Positions 41,591 through 63,606 of a stretch of DNA of 64,000 nucleotides are shown one piece after another. Under the pieces are notes generated by a model. The model worked only from the letters and a program-made list of their open reading frames with translations, made no database searches and was not told where the DNA came from. Each line of letters starts with the position of its first letter. The stretch's first letter is position 1. The translations under genes and the position numbers were made by a program. Source of the stretch: Erodium maritimum. Lineage: Eukaryota; Streptophyta; Magnoliopsida; Geraniales; Geraniaceae. The DNA lies in contig OY997594.1 of the NCBI GenBank assembly GCA_963921825.1, positions 10,235,001 through 10,299,000 of the forward strand, written 5' to 3'.

Positions 41591-44500
41591 CCGCGTTCCA
41601 GTTGGAGGGAGATGCATATCATTGGTGGCAGCGCGAGCAGGCGCGAATGAGGGATGACTTTCCGCTGTTTGGACAGCGTTTCCTGAAGCAGTACTTCCCG
41701 TAGTCAGTATTGGATGACAGGCACCAGCAGTTCCTGGAACTGCGTCAGGAGGGGATGATAGTGTCCGAGTACGAGGCGAGGTTCACTTCCTTGTCCCGAT
41801 TTTCCTCGGAGATGGTACAGACTGAGGCTCACCGCTGTAGACAGTTTGAGGGAGGGCTTCACCCTGCGATTACGGATCGGGTCGCCGTTCTGAGGACCTA
41901 AGTATACTCGGACCTGGTGGACCAAGCACTGGCAGTGGAGCGACGCTTCCGTGAGACAGACAGAGTTCGGGAGAGCAGGCCGAGACCGAGCGGCTCCTTA
42001 AGGCCGTCTAAGGCCCGTGATCCGAGGAGACAGAGGACCTCGGGATCGTTCCAGTCCTAGACACAGCTGAGAGGGACGCGACAGGTCGGATCAGTGGCAT
42101 CCGTGGGACCTGCCCCGTTAGAGCGGGCGTGTTTTCGGTGCGGGCAGTAGGGCCACGTGGCTCGAGACTGTCCGAGGAGCGGACCAGTAGATCGACCAGC
42201 GGGCAAACCGGAGGGGAGGCAGAGTGTCGGCCTGCCGTTATGCCACCAGTGCGGACGGCCAGGGCACTTCGCTGCTAGGTGCCCCAATCAATTTGGGGAG
42301 ATGTCGGCCCCGCGACCACAACAGTCGCACACTGGGCAGTCGCCGCAGTTCTATCAGCGTTAGGCTCAGGCGTCGAGGGCTCCACGGCAGGCAGCGAGCG
42401 CTCCAGCGCCGAGACAGAGAGCTGCGCAGCAGGTGGCACTTCCACCACCCCCGAGAGGCGGACCCTAGGCACCGTAGGGCAGGGTGTACGCGGTCACCGA
42501 CTCTCGAGGTGAGGGACGTCACTCCGGCCATGAGGCTACTCAGGGTACGTGTTTGCTTTACAATTCGTGGGCGTCTTTCTTATTTGATACTAGGGCATCA
42601 CATTCTTTCATATCTTCTTGTGTCGCTGGTATGTTGGGGTTGAGGGTAGAACCTTTGAGTCGACATTTATGTCTTGACACCCCTGTTACGGGAGAAGTGG
42701 TTCTGAGTACCATTTGTCGTGCATGTGAGATTACAGTTGCTGATTGCCCTTTTTCTGGTGATTTTCTTGTGTTGGACATGACGGCATTTGACGTGATCTT
42801 GGGGATGGACTGGTTAGCGAGGTACCGGGCGTCGATCGATTGCTATCGACGACAGGTGACTGTAGTATCGGGTGACACAATCGTCACTTGTGTCTTGGGC
42901 ACTAAGAGCAGAGTTCTCCTGTCTACATTGACCGTGGGTGATGAGGCGGAGACCGTGCATAGTAGAGATCTGCTGCGAGTGGTGTGTGAGTTCACAGAGG
43001 TCTTTCCGGAGGAACTGTCAGGATTACCACCTGCGCGCGAGGTTGAGTTCTGGATCGACTTGATACCGGGTACGGCGCCGATATCCATGGCCCCATACCG
43101 GTTTGCACCAGCCGAGTTGGTTGAGCTGAAGCGACAACTCGAGGAGCTTCGGGAGAAGGGATTTATCCGACCGAGTGCTTCACCGTGGGGAGCACCCGCC
43201 CTCTTCGTGAAGAAGAAGGGTGGAGCGTTGAGGATGTGCATCGATTACCAGAAGTTGAACCGGGTCATTGTGAAGAACCGTTACCCGATGCCGAGGATCG
43301 ATGACTTGTTCGATCAGCTGAGAGGAGCGAAGTGCTTCTCGAAGATTGATCTATGATCCGGGTATTATCAGTTGAGGGTTCGGGAGGAGGATGTGGCGAA
43401 GACCGCATTTCGGACTCGGTATGGGCACTACGAGTTCCTGGTGATGCCGTTCGGGCTGACGAACGCGCCTGCAACGTTCATGGATCTGATGAACGGGATC
43501 TTCCGACCGTACCTGGACTAGTTCGTCGTGGTGTTCGTAGATGATATTATGATTTATTCGCCGAGTGAGGAGGCGCGCGAGGAGCATCTGAGGACAGTTT
43601 TGATGTTGTTGCGCACTCACCAGTTGTACGTCAACCTGGAGAAAAGCGAGTATTGGCTCGCCGAGGTGAAGTTCCTCGGGCATGTTGTGTCCCGAGAGGG
43701 TATACTAGTAGATCCGGCGAAGATCGACGCGGTCTCGAAGTGGGCATGACCCAAGAGTGTCTTCGAGATCCGCAGCTTCCTAGTCTCCGCTTGATACTAT
43801 CGACGGTTCGTCCAGGACTTCTTACGCCTGGCCGCGCCGATGACTTCCCTGACACGCAAGGGAGCCGAGTTTATGTGGACTGATGATTGTGAGCACTCCT
43901 TTACCGAGCTGAAGGCTCGTTTGACTATCGCACCCGTGATGATAGTGCCGGAGCGCGGGATCAGATATGATGTGTATTGTGATGCGTCCGGTGAGGGAAT
44001 GGGATGTGTGTTGATGCAGTTCGGGAAGGTAGTTGCTTATGGCTCCAGACAGTTGAAGACACATGAGCGGAACTACCTTACCCATGACCTAGATTTGGCA
44101 GCAGTCGTCTTCGCGTTGAAGAGCTGACGACATTACTTGTATGGAGAGCGATTCCGGGTGTTCTCGGATCACAAGAGTCTCAAGTACATCTTCTCCCAGC
44201 GCGACTTGAACATGCGCCAGAGGCGGTGGATGGAGCTACTTGAGGAGTACGAATTCGAGCTACTCTACACTCCGGGCAAGGCGCACGTCGTCGCCGATGC
44301 CCTGAGTAGGAAGTCGACTTACTGCCTGGCCCGTATATCAGTCCGAGAGTGGGACATGATGGAGGAGTTGAGCACGTTTGGGCTCGAGCTTGAGGAGATC
44401 ACCGATGGCGTGGCCATGTGTTCGCTGGTGGCTCAGCCCACACTAGTTGCTCGTGTGCTGGAGGCACGGGCCGAGGATGCCGAGGCGGTAGAGATCCGGG

Positions 44501-46524
44501 AAAGGATTATCAGTGGTGTCGATACCAAGGCTGGGAGCAGGGTACTGATCTGGGTCTACGTTACCGAGGAGGGATGTTTGTGCCGCACGGTTGTAGAGAC
44601 GCGGTGCTGAGAGAGTCTCATCACTCCCGTCTTGTTGTGCACCCGGGTGGCACCAAGATGTATCGGGATATCAGACGGCAATTCTGGTGGAGCGGGATAC
44701 AGAGAGCAGTTGCAGAGTTCGTCTCGAGATGCCTCACCTGTCAGCAAGTAAAGGCCGAGCATCAGCGTCCCGCCGGTTTGTTACAACCATTGTCGATTGC
44801 GCAGTGGAAGTGGGACCACGTCACGATGGACTTCGTGTGTGGCTTACCGAGGTCGCCAAGAGGGCACGACGCATTTTGGGTAGTGGTCGACCGATTGACC
44901 TAGTCGGCACACTTCTTAGCCATGAGGATGACTGATACGGTTAACACTCTGAGTCGTCTGTACGTTCGAGAGATTATCCGTCTTCACGGGGTTCTGGTGT
45001 CGGTTGTGTCCGACAGAGATCCTCGATTCACCTCCAGGTTTTGGGAGAGCTTGCAGAGAGCACTAGGGACCGAGGTCTTGCTCAGTACAGCGTATCACCC
45101 GCAGACGGACGGTCAGCCAGAGCGCACGATTCAGATCTTAGAGGATATGCTACAAGCATGTGTGTTGGACTTTCAAGGGTCATGGGAGGACCACTTACCA
45201 TTGGCTGAGTTCGCCTACAACAACAGCTTCCAGGCCAGTATTGGAATGGCACCGTTTGAGGCGTTGTATGGTAGGCCTTGTCGTTCGCCCGTGTGTTGGG
45301 CAGAGGGAGGAGACATGAGTTTACTTGGTCCGAAGCTTGTCCGGGAGACGACCGAGAAGGTCGCACTAATTCGGGAGGGGTTGAGGACCGCGCAGAGTCG
45401 ACAAAAGAGTTACCCTGACAGACGGCGCCGGCCTCTCGAGTTTATAGTTGGTGATCATGTGTTTCTGAGGGTGAGCCCGAAGAAGGGGCGAGTGCGATTC
45501 ATCCGCGGCGGAGGCAAGTTGGCCCCGCGGTTTATTGGACCTTTTGAGGTTCTGGGCAGAGTTGGAGCCGTTGCTTACCACCTTGCATTGCCACCGCAGC
45601 TTGAGAACGTTCATAACGTCTTCCACGTTTCCCAACTGCGAAAGTACACTGTGGACCCCTCCCACGTTATTGAGTGGACGGACATCGAGGTAGCTGAGGA
45701 TGTTTCGTATGAGGAGCAGCCAGTCAGGATTCTGGATACGCGGGAGCAGGTCTTACGAGGCAAGACTATCCCACTGGTACGGGTACAGTGGCAGCACCAC
45801 GGGTACATGGACGTCACTCCGGCCATGAGGCTTTCTAGGCCGACGCGGCGTGAGCCGGTGTGATATATTGTGACTGTGCCCCGATGCGGTTCCGGGAAGA
45901 CATCTAGGCCGATGTTGTGTGATCCGGTATGATGTATTGTGATTGTGCCCCGATGTGGTTCTGGGAAGATATCTAGGTCGATGATGTGTGATCCAGTACG
46001 ATATGGTGAGTCGGGCTGCTGTACGGGACGTGTGATTGCTTTATTATGTGTTGTATGCTTGAGGATATGATAAGTGATGTGAGTACGTTGTGATAGTGGT
46101 CGTGACAGTGTGTTTGTGTTTGTGTGTTCTCTATGGCTGTCATTAGTGTTGTGGCTTACTAGTATGCCCTAATTGGACGGTTACTCGTGGTGGTAAGCGG
46201 ATACTCGTCACATTAACTACTTTTCCTACTGAGCGAAAGCTCACCCCTTACTTTTCTGTGATAGAGGTCTTGAGCGGGATTTGGACTAGCGGTATTCTCG
46301 GAGTTAAGGAGCTAGCGAGGGTCTTAGGCTAGTGTGGTCTAGAGACGTACTTTCTATTTTGAGCTAAACATTTTATTAATGGATTTGTGAGTTGTTGACT
46401 CACTTTATCGGATTTATTGATTTGGGGTACTACTTTTGGAGTTCATTTCCTTTTAAATTGCTTTATCATTTATTTTCTCAGTTCACGTCTCGAGTCTGGT
46501 CAAAACCGGATTTGGGGCGTGACA
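41591..46524 (+). mobile_element. Decayed Ty3/gypsy (Tekay/Del-like chromovirus) gag-pol body with 3' LTR tail
   Basis: Parts occur in canonical order: gag with zinc knuckles (41591 to about 42470), protease with a [10 protein letters not shown]-type active-site region (about 42590), reverse transcriptase (about 43000-43560), RNase H (about 43850-44310), integrase with its HHCC zinc finger and core (about 44630-45400) and a C-terminal domain ending near 45860. The last 660 bp are the tail of an LTR ending GTGACA at 46524. Order and wording place it in the Tekay/Del chromovirus clade. The 5' LTR and the start of gag are absent. The body is broken, with roughly eight to ten interruptions, and looks old. 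It lies inside the LTR at 41117-49041. Confidence 0.9.
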
Positions 46525-47849: not shown

Positions 47850-48455
47850 GTGTTCCGGTACGATATCTATATCTAAGGAGGATTCCGATATAGGATATCT
47901 AGACCGAGGCTTCCGGTATGATATCTATACCGAAGGAGGATTCCGGTATAGGATATCTAGACCGAGGCTAGGTGTCCCGGTATGATATCTATACCGAAGG
48001 AGGATTCCGGTATAGGATATCTAGGCCGAGGGTGGTGTGGCGGGACGATATCTAGGCCGATGCTGTGTGCCGGATAGATATGTTCCAAGGCTAGGTGTTC
48101 TGGTATGATATCCGAACCAATACTGTGTGTTCTGGTATACGTATATCCTGACCCATATTGTGTGTTCCGGTATGATACCTATATCGAAGGAGGATTCCGA
48201 TATAGGATATCTAGACCGAGGCTAGGTGTTCCGGTATGATACCTATACCGAAGGAGGATTCCAATATAGGATATCCTGACCTAGGCTATGTCTTGTGATA
48301 TACGTATATCAATATTGTATGTTCCGGTGTGATACCTCTACCGAAGGAGGATTCTGGTATAGGATATCTAGACCGATGTTATGTGTTCCGGTGTGATACC
48401 TATGCCGAAGGAGGATTCCGGTATAAGATATGTAGACCGATGATGTGTGTTCCGG
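47850..48455. repeat. Minisatellite within the LTR, unit about 64 bp, 8-10 copies
   Basis: Units start CCGGTATGATA(T/C)CTATACC, continue GAAGGAGGATTCCGGTATAG and end GATATCTAGACCGA followed by GGCTAGGTGTT. Related LTRs carry fewer copies; the LTR at 36709-38792 has about two near 37735-37900. Confidence 0.8.
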
Positions 48456-49041
48456 TGTTATTGGTAATGATTTACTGTGTGTATTTACTCGATGACTCTT
48501 TGAGATATGGTTTGGGTGTGAACATTGAGAAATTGTTAATTGTTGAGCAGGGTTGATCTCATACGCCAAGTGTAACGATTATGTAAGTGATGTGATCACA
48601 CGAGGTAGGGTTAAGTGAGGTTGATTATGATTGTGGTTGTGATTACCGTTCGGCTCGTTAGTTATTATGCTTTACTAGTATGCCCTATTTGGACGATTAC
48701 CCGTGGTGGTGAGCGGATAGCTCATCCCCTTAACTACTTTTTCCTACTGAGCGAAAGCTCACCCCCTTTATTACTGTTTTATAGGTTTCGATCGTGAGTT
48801 GGTCTAGAGGATGTCTCGGAGCCTGGGAGCTTAGCGAGAGTCCTAGCTTGGCGGTTGTCTAGAGACGTAATTCCATTATACTAAACTTTTTCTAATTGGA
48901 TTTTGAGCATTTGACTCTCGGTACCTGAATTACCGGTTTTGGATTATTTATTGGAGGTTTATTTCGTTTAATTTTACTTTATTTATTATCACTTTTAGTT
49001 CACGTCTCGAGTCCGGTCAAAACCGGATTTGGGGCGTGACA

Positions 49042-54575: not shown

Positions 54576-55894
54576 ATGGTAACATCATCATCATCATCAT
54601 CAGTTTTGATGATTCTTGTATGTTCTATGTAGTTGAGCCATCTCCAACAGTGATCCAATGGTGGCTCAGATTCTCGGGAGTTCCCTGTTTGGTAAAATCT
54701 ACCCACAAGCTATCTTGATAATCAGCAACTTAGTACTAGTATGTTTTTCATTTTTGTTCCCTTGCTATTGCAGGTGCTGTTTTGTTTGTTAGACTCGTTG
54801 GCCTTCCTCTGGCTCTTGTTGTGTTCCTAATCCACAAATACGTCAAGACACGCAAGAAACTCGACGATGTGGAGCAGTTTCTGCGCGACCAAGAGTCTGC
54901 AATGCCCAAGAGGTACTCTTACACTAATATCACGGCCATCACCAACCATTTCCGGGACAAATTGGGACAGGGAGGGTTCGGGTCCGTCTACAAAGGGCAG
55001 CTCCCCGGTGGCTACTTCATTGCCGTCAAAATGCTCAACGCCTCCTCCAAGTTCAGCGGCGACGACTTCATCAGCGAGGTCTCCACAATTGGAAGAATTC
55101 ACCACAGAAACATTGTGCCATTGATAGGTTTCTGCTCTGAAGGATCGCATCGCGCTCTTGTGTACGAGTACATGCCTAACGGGTCTCTTGACAAACATAT
55201 ATTCTCCAAGAAAGGGAAAGGCCAAATGTTTAGTTGGGAGAAACTCCTTGACATAGCTCTGGGAGCAGCCAGGGGAATCAGTTACTTACATGAAGGCTGC
55301 GATGTTTGCATCCTTCATTTCGACATCAAGCCTCACAATGTCCTTCTCGACCATGACTTCGTCCCCAAGATAGCGGACTTTGGACTCGCAAAGTTTTATC
55401 CTAAAGAACGTGACATTGTGTCCGTTAGCACTGCTAGAGGAACGATAGGGTACATAGCTCCTGAACTGACATCTAAAAACTTTGGAGCTGTTTCTTCCAA
55501 AACTGATGTTTACAGCTTTGGGATGGTACTTCTTGAAATGGCCGGTGGGAGAAGGAACGTTGATGTGAGGGAGGAGAATTCGAGCAGGGTTTATTTCCCT
55601 TCGTGGGTGCATGACCATTTGATCGCTGGGGAAGGCTTAGGACTCGTAAATGTGACCCAAAGTGAGTCAAAGATTGCCCAAAAGTTGTGTTTGGTTGGGC
55701 TGTGGTGCATTCAGGTGATGGCAACGGATAGGCCATCGATGAGTAGAGTGGTGGAAATGCTAGAAGGGAGGCTTGAAGATCTGCAGGTACCTCCTAAGCC
55801 CGACTTCTCGACTCCTACATACATGTCTAAGAGGGACTCTCTATGGGATTCTTCTATAGGGTCAAGCTTGTACATGAGTGAGCCCAGTGTGTAA
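54576..55894 (+). pseudogene. LRK10L-type receptor kinase, ectodomain deleted (gene A1)
   Basis: The ATG at 54576 opens a serine-rich signal peptide like that of the gene at 59319 (MVTSSSSSSVLMILVCSM), but a stop follows at codon 19. After the equivalent of SHLQ the sequence jumps to the short exon before the membrane segment, so the whole GUB_WAK ectodomain exon is gone. The kinase exon (from 54774, open to 55894) is intact: membrane segment LVGLPLALVVFLIHKYV, glycine loop GQGGFGSVYKG, Lys in YFIAVKML, HFDIKPHNVLLD (non-RD), DFGLAK and IAPEL. It is about 90% or more identical in protein to the gene at 59319. As a receptor it is broken. A shorter kinase could start inside the kinase exon, for example at the Met of SAMPKRYSY, if the locus is transcribed. 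Confidence 0.85.
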
Positions 55895-56252: not shown

Positions 56253-57687
56253 ATGGCCTTCCTCTTGTTCATCATCTTTTTCTTCTTCTTCTTCCAAGAT
56301 GCAACAACTTATGGACAAAACGGCCAGGACAATCTCACCATAGGTGAGTTATCAATCCTAAGGTCTTGTTCTGCAACTTCATTGATATGTATAATAAGTC
56401 CTTTTTGTGAATTGATATGCAGGTTCTTCTAATGACAATATCACCACAGGTGAGTTATGAATCCCAAAGTCTCGTTCTGCAACTTAATTGATATGTATAC
56501 TAAGTCTTTTTTTGAATTGATATGCAGGTTCTTCTCATCACAATTTCACCATAGGTGAGTTATCAATCCTTAAGTGTTGCTCTCCAACTTAATTGATATG
56601 TATACTAAGTCCTCTTGTGAATTGATATGCAGGTTCCAATAAAGATCTCACCATAGGCTTAAGTGTTGTTGGCACCATTATTCTGATCGTGGTGGTACTC
56701 TTTTTCTCCTACAGAATCCGAAAATCAAACAGAGAAAAAGAAATTGAAGTAAAGCTAGACAAGTTCCTCTTAGCCTACAAGAGCCTAAGTCCTGTTAGAT
56801 ACACTTACAGTGATGTCAACAAAATGACTAATAGGTTCACTCACAAACTCGGGCAAGGAGGACTTGGAAGCGTGTACCGCGGAGAGCTCTTGAACGGAAT
56901 GCCAGTGGCAGTCAAAGTGCTGAAGAGCTCCGGCAATGAGTTTATGAATGAGATCTCAACTATAAGTAGGATACACCATATCAATGTTGTCAGGCTCCGA
57001 GGCTACTGCTCGGAGGGGGCACGAAGAGCTCTGGTGTATGAGTACATGCCTAATGAGTCGCTTCAGAAAGTGATGTCCAGAGAAGCTAAAGAGCTGAGTT
57101 GGGAGAAGATGGAGCAGATAGCAATTGGAATTGCACATGGGGTTGAGTACTTGCACCAAGGTTGCAACCAGACGATACTCCATTTGGACATCAAGCCCCA
57201 AAATATCTTGCTTGACCATAACTTGCAGCCCAAGATATCTGATTTTGGTATGGCCATGTTGTGTGGTAAGGAGCGTGGCTCTGTGTCCATGACAGGGGCT
57301 AGAGGAACGGAAGGATACATGGCACCAGAGGTCATGTCGAGGACTTTCGGGGAGGTTTCTGACAAGTCTGATGTGTACAGCTTCGGGATGGTGTTGCTAG
57401 AGATGGTTGGTTCTAACAGGAAGAAGGAGATGGATGGTGAAGGAAGCCAAATTGGCCTTTCCGAGTGGATATATGAGAGAGTGAGTAGAGAGGAAGAGCT
57501 TGGGTTAGAGGGAGAGGAGGAGACTGCGAAGAAGCTCGCCATTGTTGGACTTTGGTGCATACAATGGGATCCAACACAGAGGCCTTCCATGAGTATGGTC
57601 ATTCAAATGCTTGAAGCTGACTGTAACCTCTTGGATATACCTCCCAAGCCATTTGTTTCTTCTCATATTGTAATGGGAATGAGTTGA
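56253..57687 (+). CDS. LRK10L-type non-RD kinase with miniature ectodomain made of micro-exons (gene B1), 399 aa
   Basis: Exons are 56253-56343, 56423-56449, 56528-56554 and 56633-57687, all introns GT-AG and phase 1. The joined frame is 400 codons without a stop. It encodes a signal peptide (MAFLLFIIFFFFFFQDATTY), about 36 residues outside the membrane, a membrane helix at about 58-75 (LSVVGTIILIVVVLFFSY), a basic stop-transfer (RIRKSNREK) and a kinase from about 115. Kinase motifs are GQGGLGSVYRG, VAVKVL, LHLDIKPQNILLD (HLD, non-RD), DFGMAML and MAPEV. Compared with the gene at 61756, about 210 residues of GUB_WAK and Cys-rich ectodomain are missing. They are replaced by a nine-residue unit (GSSxxNxTx type) repeated about four times, carrying sequons at N27, N36 and N45. 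Exons 2 and 3 are 27 bp and symmetric, so skipping them keeps the frame. It may act as a membrane kinase without ligand binding, or as a co-receptor. Expression is unproven. Confidence 0.8.
56344..56632 (+). repeat. Tandem triplication of an intron plus 27-bp micro-exon unit (105 bp)
   Basis: Intron copies start GTGAGTTAT at 56344, 56450 and 56555 and end TTGATATGCAG at 56422, 56527 and 56632. Between them lie micro-exons of 27 bp. The unit corresponds to the single intron of the gene at 61756 (62468-62545) plus the first 27 bp of its second exon. Each copy begins exactly at the splice donor. Confidence 0.92.
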
Positions 57688-59318: not shown

Positions 59319-61421
59319 ATGGCAATATCATCGTCATCATCATCATCATCAGTTTTGATGGTTCTGGTATGTTCTCTGTTGTTGAGCCATCTCCAAGCAA
59401 TAACCCTCGAACCAGGTGTTAACTGCTCTTCTTCCTGCGGCGACATCAGAAACATCAGCTACCCTTTTCGCCTGAGCACCGACCCTCCAAACTGCGGCGA
59501 TCCCGGCTACGAGCTTTCTTGCGACCAAAGCAACCGGGCCGTCCTCCAATACTTTTCCCAAAGCTACTATGTGAAGCATATCTGGTACCACAACTCCACC
59601 ATTCGCCTTGTCGATCCCAATTTAGCCGCTGGGAGCTGCAGATTCCCATCAAGATCCTTGTCTTATGACCAAGTAGTGGACGGAACCGATCCTCGCTTCA
59701 TGAGACCTTCTCAAACCTCCTCGGCGAGCTTTGTCAATTGCACCCAGAACGTCTCTGATCCGCAATACACAAGAGTCCCCTGTTTGAGCACCACAACCGT
59801 TGCTTCTGTCTACATCGCTTACGGTGGCCTCACCTATTCTGCCCTCAAGCCTTCCTGCTTCTTCCTCTTCATGGTGCCGGTACTTCCTCAAGGCCCCAAA
59901 AACACCTCCTACGCAGCTACAATCGAATTGCTCGAGTCTGGCTTCGATCTTTCCTGGTCTTTGTTTTGCAGAGACTGCCTTGTTTCAGGAGGCTCCTGTG
60001 CTCTAACTTTGCTCAATGACTCATTTGTCGACTTTTGCGACAAAGGTACCATATAAATTCGTTCAAATTTCAAGCTAACCTATGCTTAATTAGCCTCTTT
60101 AATGCTTGTTTTTATGCAGACAACTACATAGTTACAACAGTGATTCCACAGGTGGCTCGGATTCTCGGGAGTCTCTTGTTCGGTAAAATCTAGCCACAAG
60201 TTGTCTTGTCTTGATTGATAATCAGCAACTCGGTAGTAGTATGTTTTTTTCATTTTTTGTTCCCTTGCTATTGCAGATGCGGTTTTGTTTGTTAGATTCT
60301 TTGTTTTTCCTCTTGTTCTGCTTGTGTTCCTAATCCACAAATACGTCAAGACGCGCAAGAAAGTGGACAATGTGGAGCAATTTCTGCGCGACCAAGAGTC
60401 TGCAATGCCTAGGAGGTACTCTTACTCTGATATCACGGCCATCACAAACCATTTCCGGGACAAATTGGGCCAGGGAGGGTTCGGGTCCGTCTTCAAAGGG
60501 CAGCTCCCAGGTGGCTACTTCATTGCCGTCAAAATGCTAAATGCCTCTTCCAAGTTCAGTGGCGATGACTTCATCAGTGAGGTCTCCACAATCGGAAGAA
60601 TTCACCACAGAAACATTGTGCAATTGATAGGTTTCTGCTCTGAAGGATCGCATCGAGCTCTTGTGTACGAGTACATGCCTAACGGGTCTCTTGACAAACA
60701 TATATTCTCCAAGAAAGGGAAAGGCCAAATGTTTAGTTGGGAGAAACTCCTTGACATAGCTCTGGGATCAGCCAGGGGAATCAATTACTTACATGAAGGC
60801 TGCGATGTTTGCATTCTTCATTTCGACATTAAGCCTCACAATGTCCTGCTCGACCGCGACTTTGTCCCCAAGATAGCTGATTTCGGACTGGCAAAGTTTT
60901 ATCCTAAAGAACGTGACATTGTGTCCGTTAGCACTACTAGAGGAACAATAGGGTACATAGCTCCGGAACTGATATCTAGAAACTTTGGAGCTGTTTCTTC
61001 CAAAACTGATGTTTATAGCTTTGGGATGGTACTTCTGGAAATGGCCGGTGGGAGAAGGAATGTTGATGTGAGGGAGGAGAATTCGAGCAGGGTTTATTTC
61101 CCTTCGTGGGCACATGACCATTTGAACGCTGGAGAAGGTTTAGGACTCGTAAATGTGACCGAAAGTGAGTCAAAGATTGCCCAAAAGTTGTGCGTGGTTG
61201 GGCTGTGGTGCATTCAGATCAAGGCAACGGATAGGCCATCGATGAGTAGAGTGGTGGAAATGTTGGAAGGGAGCCTTGAAGATCTGCAGATACCTCCTAA
61301 GCCCGTCTTCTCTACTCCGAAGTACATGTCTAAGAGGGACTCCCAATGGGATTCTTCTACAGGGTCGTTGATATCAGAGTCTGTGGAGGAAAGCTTGTAC
61401 ATGAGTGATCCAAGTGTGTAA
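59319..61421 (+). CDS. LRK10L-type receptor-like kinase, full length (gene A2), 644 aa
   Basis: Exons are 59319-60045, 60120-60182 and 60277-61421; the joined frame is 645 codons including the stop. The serine-rich signal peptide is residues 1-27 (SVLMVLVCSLLLSHLQA). The GUB_WAK galacturonan-binding-type ectodomain follows (NCSSSCGDIRNISYPFRLST at about 35-54). A second Cys-rich block ends at CDK242. The membrane segment is about 265-287 and the kinase about 320-610: glycine loop G328-G333, K349, HFD at 445-447 (non-RD), DFG at 465-467, then IAPEL. The family (LRK10-like, with wheat LR10 neighbours and Arabidopsis PR5K-type kinases) is linked to pathogen and stress signalling at the plasma membrane; the ligand is unknown. 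It is the intact counterpart of the gene at 54576. A second gene of a different subtype follows 334 bp downstream on the same strand. Confidence 0.92.
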
Positions 61422-61755: not shown

Positions 61756-63606
61756 ATGGCCCTCCTCTTGTTCATCTTCATCTTCTTCTTCCAAGATGCA
61801 ACAACTCATGGACAAAACTTGTCCGAACTCTGCACATCTACCAGATGCAATGAAAATGGACCAGGAATCAGTTTCCCTTTCTGGCTCAATACTCAACCAT
61901 CCTCTTGTGGCCTTGAAGGGTTCCAATTATCTTGCTCCAACGATCACAAGACCCTCCTCCACCTTCCTCTCTCAGGGGACTTCTATGTCCAGGAAATCTC
62001 TTATCAACACAGAACCTTCACAATCTTGGACTCGAACGACACCAGATGTCCAATCCAGACCCTTGTGTCTCTTAACCTCTCAGGCTCCACCTTCAGCATC
62101 CCAGCTGTTTATCAAACTTTTTCTATTGTCAACTGTGCTGAGAGGGTTTCATGGACCGGAACTGATGGAGGCATAGGACCTATCAGCTGCATGAGCAGTC
62201 AAAACAATTTCGTCTACATAGTGAACGCCTATGGTTCATACAACAAGCTGCCTCAGATTTGCTCTTCCTCTGCATATTCACAAGTCAAAATTCCAACTAA
62301 TCAGGGTCTCAAAAAAAGTATTGATGGGCTCTTGAGGACCAAAGAGATCATGATCGGGTGGGAATATTCTAACGGATGCCGTTCTTGTGAGACTTTGGGG
62401 GCATATTGTGTTGGATTCAATAGTACCACAAATTCTCCTCGGTGTCGCAAACTTGGCAAGTCTGAAGGTGAGTTATCAATCCTAAAGTCTTGTTCTGCAA
62501 CTTCATTGATTTGTATACTAAGTCCTTTTGAGAATTGATATGCAGGTTCTTCTCATGACAGTCTCACCATAGGCTTAAGTGTTGTTGGCACCATTGTTCT
62601 GATCGTGGTGGTTCTCTATTTCTCCTACAGAATCCGAAAATCAAACAGAGAAAAAGAAATTGAACGAAAGCTAGACAAGTTCCTCTTAGCCTACAAGAAC
62701 CAAAGTCCCGTTAGATACACCTACAGAGATGTCAAGAAAATGACTAACAAGTTCGATCACAAACTCGGGCAAGGAGGACATGGAAGTGTGTACCGCGGAG
62801 AACTCTTGAGCGGAGTGCCCGTGGCAGTCAAAGTGCTGAAGAACTCCAAAGACGGGAACGAGTTCATGAATGAGATCTCAACTCTAAGTAGGATACACCA
62901 TTTCAATGTTGTCCGGCTTCTAGGGTACTGCTCGGAGGGGGCACGAAGAGCTCTGGTGTATGAGTACATGCCTAATGAATCGCTTCAGAAAGTGATGTCC
63001 AGAGAAGGTAAAGAGCTGAGTTGGGAGAAGATGGAGCAGATAGCAATTGGGATTGCACATGGGGTTGAGTACTTGCACCAAGGTTGCAACCAGATGGTGC
63101 TCCATTTGGACATCAAGCCCCACAATATCTTGCTTGACCATAATTTGCAGCCCAAGATATCTGATTTTGGTATGGCCATGTTGTGTTCTAAGGAGCATGG
63201 CTTTGTGTCCAAGACAGGGGCTAGAGGAACGGAAGGATACATGGCACCAGAGGTCTTGTCGAGGTCTTTCGGGGAGGTTTCTGCCAAGTCTGATGTGTAC
63301 AGCTTCGGGATGTTGCTGCTAGAGATGGCAGGATCTTACAGGAAGAGGGAGATGGATGGTGAAGGAAGCCAAATTGGTTTTTCCGAGTGGATATATGAGA
63401 GAGTGAGTAGAGGGGAAGAGCTTGGGTTAGAGGGAGAGGAGACCGCCAAGAAGCTTGCCATTGTTGGACTTTGGTGCATACAATGGGATCCAACGCAGAG
63501 GCCTTCCATGAGTATGGTCATTCAAATGCTTGAAGGTGACTGCAAGTTCTTAGATATACCTCCCAAACCATTTGTTTCTTCTCATATTGAAATTGGTGTG
63601 AGTTGA
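61756..63606 (+). CDS. LRK10L-type receptor-like kinase, full length (gene B2), 590 aa
   Basis: Exons are 61756-62467 and 62546-63606, joined by a phase-1 GT-AG intron; the frame is 591 codons including the stop. Signal peptide MALLLFIFIFFFQDATTHG is followed by a GUB_WAK-like ectodomain starting LCTSTRCNENGPGISFPFWL and a C-terminal Cys-rich block (WEYSNGCRSCETLGAYCVGF). Exon 2 starts GSSHDSLTIG, then a membrane helix at about 248-265 and a kinase from about 305: GQGGHGSVYRG, VAVKVL (K333), LHLDIKPHNILLD (HLD, non-RD), DFGMAML, MAPEV. It is the intact counterpart of the gene at 56253, with highly similar kinase and near-identical leader. An out-of-frame ATG at 61745 overlaps the start codon region. 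The role is inferred from the family: plasma-membrane immune or stress receptor. Confidence 0.92.

Follow-up and report, generated by a model that had tools for sequence, protein, structure and literature searches.

The 64,000-nucleotide stretch of Erodium maritimum DNA analyzed here (the window) lies on contig C7 (73.7 Mb; genome, 763 Mb). Toward its end it carries two tandem gene pairs, A1-B1 and A2-B2, with kinase exons in all four genes; all gene features described below are on the forward strand. The named protein matches all come from plants, and many of the best ones bear the name rust resistance kinase Lr10-like. Elsewhere in the window, open frames at 42191–45863 resemble a retrotransposon polyprotein, with reverse transcriptase and integrase parts recognized by eye, and Tandem Repeats Finder reports tandem arrays of 32/64-bp units at 47850–48458. 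A 32/96-bp array of similar consensus adjoins a kinase locus on contig C1 (L033).

The second gene pair displays the full-length architecture. A2 (59319–61421) is divided into exons at 59319–60045, 60120–60182, and 60277–61421, with a 63-nt small exon before the helix. In B2, exon 1 (61756–62467) encodes a signal peptide, assigned by eye, and an ectodomain with a GUB_WAK_bind domain. The sole intron (62468–62545, 78 bp) is followed by exon 2 (62546–63606), in which a 27-bp micro-exon module (62546–62572) is fused to the transmembrane/kinase exon, without the following intron of most module-bearing paralogs. The B2 product is 590 aa long, and GUB_WAK_bind scores 68.7 bits in B2 and 74.3 bits in A2 against Pfam. 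An earlier, sequence-only reading of this DNA had described B2 as a single-intron gene with its ectodomain kept, which agrees with this structure. The six top protein matches to B2 (P0121–P0126) measure 892–1028 aa, and their length and high scores suggest two kinase regions, pointing to either fused models of tandem gene pairs or genuine tandem kinases.

B1 is organized differently. Read with GT-AG introns, it comprises exons of 91, 27, 27, and 1055 bp and introns of 79, 78, and 78 bp, all in phase 1, with an open frame of 399 aa. Exon 1 (56253–56343) encodes a signal-peptide-like N-terminus, identified by eye, followed by 6 bp (56322–56327) and a 16-bp micro-exon remnant (56328–56343). Intron 1 (56344–56422, 79 bp) is 67% A+T and shares 74 of 78 aligned bases with the B2 intron; the B2 intron is homologous to all three B1 introns. 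Two 27-bp, phase-1 micro-exon copies follow, copy 2 at 56423–56449 (peptide SSNDNITT, with the sequon NIT) and copy 3 at 56528–56554 (SSHHNFTI, with NFT), separated by intron 2 (56450–56527) and trailed by intron 3 (56555–56632). Exon 4 (56633–57687) begins with the last micro-exon copy, fused with no intervening intron to the transmembrane/kinase exon. The exon part of this final unit measures 24 bp (56633–56656), a 3-bp in-frame deletion relative to B2.

The B1 kinase scores 160.6 bits with Pfam Pkinase and follows a transmembrane helix that was read by eye. Over the best local alignment, B1 is 41–63% identical to its 120 best-scoring relatives among the candidates scored. It resembles LRK10L/Lr10-like receptor kinases in its kinase and transmembrane region but differs from them in having no GUB_WAK_bind domain, which B2 retains. 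B1 is a derived, ectodomain-less relative of the LRK10L-type (rust resistance kinase Lr10-like) genes.

Tandem Repeats Finder identifies the B1 array at 56329–56636, with a period of 105, 2.9 copies, 88% matches, and a score of 481. Together with the GT-AG reading, this confirms the initial description of an intron plus 27 bp repeated in tandem, with matched phases and an open 399-aa frame. All three units begin GTGAGTTAT, in keeping with the GTGAGT start that had been reported; the reported ACCATAG end is present in two of the three, the first unit ending in ACCACAG instead. Units are 84–89% identical to each other and 86–92% identical to B2 when gap columns are excluded, with 12–16 aligned-site differences between B1 units and 8–14 between units and B2. 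Because another 16 bp of the unit remain at the end of exon 1, at least four exon copies seem once to have been present. The repeat, its phases, the divergence of its copies, and the 16-bp remnant are real. A scan of 30 kinase loci, with ~1.5 kb on each side, detected a ~105-bp array at B1 alone, where it is seen in L012 and in the overlapping A1 locus L031; this bears out the earlier view that the array is a derived feature.

A tandem repeat in a coding region could in principle be an unspliced coding repeat or an assembly error. The frame of B1 is kept in all four combinations of micro-exon inclusion, and each retained intron introduces an early stop (seven of seven intron-retention combinations), so we rejected an unspliced repeat. 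The B1 copies are not an assembly artefact because they differ at 12–16 sites, unlike a doubled read stack; the sequence-only reading had itself raised the possibility of an erroneous triplication, and this divergence rules it out. We regard both options as extremely improbable. When the four introns are aligned, 16 of 79 columns are variable, none of them among the first 9 or the last 14 (P = 0.002, with limits picked post hoc); for the 11 core splice positions, P = 0.07.

Searching the genome with the kinase exon of B2 gave 1801 first-look candidates, of which 115 were scored. We inspected the interval between the ectodomain and the transmembrane exon in 22 family loci, using candidate lists, some of them re-read, where the gap exceeded ~1 kb. 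Paralog micro-exons were called from splice consensus and peptide similarity, and AG-27-GT candidates also arise by chance in the stretches inspected. Seven of the 22 loci (L013, L014, L016, L020, L021, L022, and L023) contain a separate candidate exon of 27 nt in phase 1, flanked at either end by splice consensus. The intron that follows it was traced to the transmembrane exon in all seven (in L022 by eye only), and the joined peptide was translated for five. L017 and L018 carry the 27-nt module fused to the ectodomain exon, with a donor at the module end, and L046, which belongs to the gene of L015, carries it fused to the transmembrane exon as in B2. The module is thus borne by 10 of the 22 loci, 9 of which have an intron after it; B1 and B2 lack that intron. 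No 27-nt module was recognized in the inspected interval of the other 12. Five of these show other small-exon lengths by eye (~33 nt in L019 and L040, 42 nt in L027, 30 nt in L032, and longer in L051), the remaining seven being L024, L034, L041, L043, L044, L047, and L048. A similar peptide lies just before the helix in some of the 19 annotated plant proteins viewed, including P0050, P0067, and P0155.

Given this recurrence among paralogs, the 27-bp piece of B1 and B2 is most simply read as an old native micro-exon, and the unit's 3′ edge as an old splice junction. The gene of L015 shares the joined state, so loss of the intron after the micro-exon is not confined to the B genes; it may have happened repeatedly, or may predate the B line. 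The two internal B1 exons, called by splice consensus, lie within the size range of plant microexons (<51 nt). Like the plant microexons described in passages of PMC8831610 and PMC10808074, they are internal and shorter than 51 nt; in B1, short A+T-rich introns flank them. Those passages describe single microexons, in contrast to the tandem array of B1. The word "tandem" does not occur in the main text of PMC8831610, and no tandem micro-exon array in the LRK10L family was found in the open-access papers searched, as judged chiefly from titles and the openings of abstracts.

We propose that B1 arose by tandem duplication of a native micro-exon together with its intron, plus a deletion of the ectodomain, and assign this reading a probability of roughly 60%. 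The ancestral order, as in several relatives, would have been the ectodomain exon, intron a, the 27-nt phase-1 micro-exon, intron b, and the transmembrane/kinase exon. Loss of intron b before or within the B line would have fused the micro-exon to the transmembrane exon. Intron a and the micro-exon would then have been copied in tandem, probably through a short AG|G homology common to both edges, to give at least four exon copies with ready-made splice sites. A deletion of ~0.74 kb (on a B2-like layout), beginning immediately past the signal peptide and ending within an early micro-exon copy, would have removed the GUB_WAK ectodomain. Splicing, exon inclusion, glycosylation, the loss of intron b, and the order of these events in B1 are what we infer. 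The edges in B2 are GAAG|GTGAGT on the left and ATAG|GC on the right; both share AGG, so the B1 joint follows from a microhomology-driven duplication or an unequal exchange. Had intron b still been in place at the time of duplication, the shared stretch would have been the donor itself, and longer.

The sequence-only reading had instead attributed the array to a model of intron gain in which an AGGT-bearing exonic segment is tandemly duplicated. The joined B1 copies do read ATAG|GTGAGT (ACAG|GTGAGT after the first unit), as that model expects. The copied segment, however, holds a complete intron whose relative in B2 has the same donor, and the right edge in B2 is ATAGGC rather than AGGT. In the AGGT model, as presented in passages of PMC4974935 and PMC3443670, an exonic segment is duplicated to make an intron; in B1, no exonic segment supplies GT and AG in the manner of this model (the Rogers model). 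We therefore rejected AGGT intron gain, which we consider very unlikely. Since the copied segment includes the entire intron, the B1 array represents multiplication of an existing intron and not intron creation, two processes that are set apart in PMC4974935. The B1 unit, an existing intron plus exon in compatible phase 1, corresponds to tandem exon duplication with intron propagation. A close parallel is Arabidopsis TOUCH3 (Knowles and McLysaght 2006, as related in a passage of PMC4974935), in which a whole intron was copied along with coding sequence and the splice sites were inherited, as in B1. B1 differs from TOUCH3, as described there, in that a single 27-nt micro-exon module makes up the exon part that was copied, and in that the copies adjoin an ectodomain deletion. 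In the potato RdRp gene, given in PMC4974935 as a case where an intron was gained when a segment spanning an intron-exon boundary was tandemly duplicated, a cryptic exonic donor is used according to the passage, whereas the donor in B1 is the original intron's own.

A more elaborate version of the duplication reading can be drawn for the B1 breakpoint. The intron that once separated the micro-exon from the transmembrane exon might, after its loss, have been regained at precisely this position. The scar, AG|G, would have paired with the neighboring donor, and the tandem duplication would have put a copy of the upstream intron there; the ancestral micro-exon would have been rebuilt and then multiplied into a stalk with sequons spaced by nine residues, and the ectodomains of both A1 and B1 lost. 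We offer this history tentatively and judge it doubtful.

In B1 exon 1, the signal peptide is followed by 6 bp and then by the last 16 bp of a micro-exon copy (56322–56343). On a B2-like layout, the ectodomain deletion spans ~61819–62556, with its right end within an earlier micro-exon copy. Since B1 intron 1 is a copy of the unit intron, matching B2 at 74 of 78 bases, the deletion occurred after at least one duplication, or with it. Amplification of the micro-exon had earlier been proposed to have replaced the ectodomain. Both events are borne out, but not as a single event, since a separate deletion ends inside the earlier copy. A1 displays a parallel loss. Its signal-peptide exon survives as a remnant (54576–54647) with a stop codon at 54630–54632 (codon 19), and the ectodomain is deleted just after it; relative to A2, ~738 bp are missing, the gap beginning right after the signal peptide and reaching into the small exon that precedes the helix. 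The transmembrane and kinase part of A1 (54658–55894; intron 54692–54773) can be read from an ATG at 54658, which is absent from A2, and the kinase exon stays open. The two similar deletions in the A1/B1 pair reflect either shared relaxation or shared advantage. Among 15 kinase matches in the series L041–L051, a search of 5.0–6.5 kb upstream returned an ectodomain-like match on the same strand for 12 and none for the other three (L045, L049, and L050).

B1 and B2 are separated by a synonymous distance of 0.126–0.144 and a flanking noncoding distance of 0.15–0.16. The mean distance is 0.137 between units and 0.108 between units and B2 (0.111 and 0.085, respectively, for introns alone). The array is not much younger than the gene-pair duplication: in a clock fit its age is best at 1.0 of the B1/B2 split, and an age of 0.5 is worse by 3.6 (intron) to 6.1 (intron plus exon) log units. 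By the clock, the array dates from about the time of the split or earlier, and B2 may be a contracted array. The array could accordingly predate the separation of B1 and B2, with B1 keeping the older state, a timing variant that is compatible with the duplication-plus-deletion reading. Consistent with this, unit-unit differences are not below unit-B2 ones (bootstrap share 0.92; 0.88 for introns only), and joining B2 to unit 1 fits better by 1.7–2.1 log units at the cost of one extra parameter, which is not decisive. Set against the flank distance of 0.15–0.16, however, the intron unit distance of 0.11 dates the array to ~0.7 of the split. Within the 30 kinase loci, just one gene has a unit array, which favours an origin within the B line, and a later origin takes fewer steps. 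We hold the older array to be a serious possibility, though at somewhat less than even odds. The unit tree is star-like and, drawn from 105 bp only, weak in order and polarity. It stays unrooted because no third close B-type gene that could act as an outgroup is present among the 115 matches scored, in which B1 is 88% identical and the next kinase at most 56%. B2 had been taken as a plain ancestor in the sequence-only reading; this is not supported, given that 9 of 10 other module loci have the intron absent from B1 and B2 and that on the clock the array is not clearly later than the split.

Could B1 be a decaying copy whose array and open frame persist passively, with no functional protein made? 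The neighboring A1 gene suffered a comparable deletion of its ectodomain, and its signal peptide is interrupted by a stop codon, damage that makes decay of the A1/B1 pair plausible; B1 itself has no ectodomain. The substitutions in the kinase argue against decay. Over 342 codons (NG86), B1 and B2 differ with dN = 0.055 and dS = 0.144, giving an omega of 0.39 (bootstrap 0.23–0.68). The whole B1-B2 difference amounts to 39 residues, 15 of which were assigned to B1 and 20 to B2 from the frequencies in 120 family proteins, compared to ~50 amino-acid changes (38–63) on a simulated neutral B1 branch, which stayed stop-free in 4.8% of 500 runs (B2 as ancestor, no indels). At positions conserved in 80%, there are four changes on B1 and four on B2. 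The corresponding counts for A1 and A2 are 18 and 12 residue changes, with one each under the strict threshold. From these substitution patterns, the B1 kinase looks to have been under constraint during most of its history; damage may nevertheless have occurred recently. We consider decay unlikely.

The predicted B1 product comprises a signal peptide, a stalk of ~35 residues, a transmembrane helix, and a kinase with the usual motifs (recognized by eye). The stalk contains three candidate N-glycosylation sequons at N27, N36, and N45, nine residues apart, one from each of the first three exon copies. The last copy lacks a sequon (D53), and B2 has a serine at that place. Neither three sequons spaced by nine nor the B1 unit peptide pattern was found in any of the 189 fetched relatives. 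No B1 orthologue with the same stalk was found in public proteins, where the nearest match is 63% identical for B1 and 56% for B2 (best 120 of 7989 and 7972 candidates, respectively). According to passages of PMC8831610, intron retention is commoner than skipping for plant microexons, and according to PMC10808074, GRP20 promotes the retention of some micro-exons. By analogy, inclusion of the B1 micro-exons in the mature mRNA is plausible. Arabidopsis LRK10L1 gives two transcripts from distinct promoters, as stated in a passage of PMC10573068, and several annotated relatives start just before the helix (P0004, P0016, and P0036), perhaps as isoforms or partial models; short forms may thus have precedent in the family. 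A stalk that is short, putatively glycosylated, and devoid of a sensor suggests a partner or constitutive role. B1 is likely a membrane kinase that would no longer be able to bind the ancestral ligand and would act, if at all, as a partner or constitutive module.

B1 offers a clean and dateable instance of the multiplication of an entire micro-exon plus intron with splice sites intact, beside single-copy relatives in the same genome, and a small natural example of exon-intron unit multiplication. If its breakpoint coincides with the place where an intron had earlier been lost, the gene would link the loss and regain of introns with proto-splice sites in one testable history. For the receptor kinase family, B1 represents a natural experiment on what becomes of a receptor kinase after the loss of its sensor, with signal peptide, stalk, membrane helix, and kinase kept.
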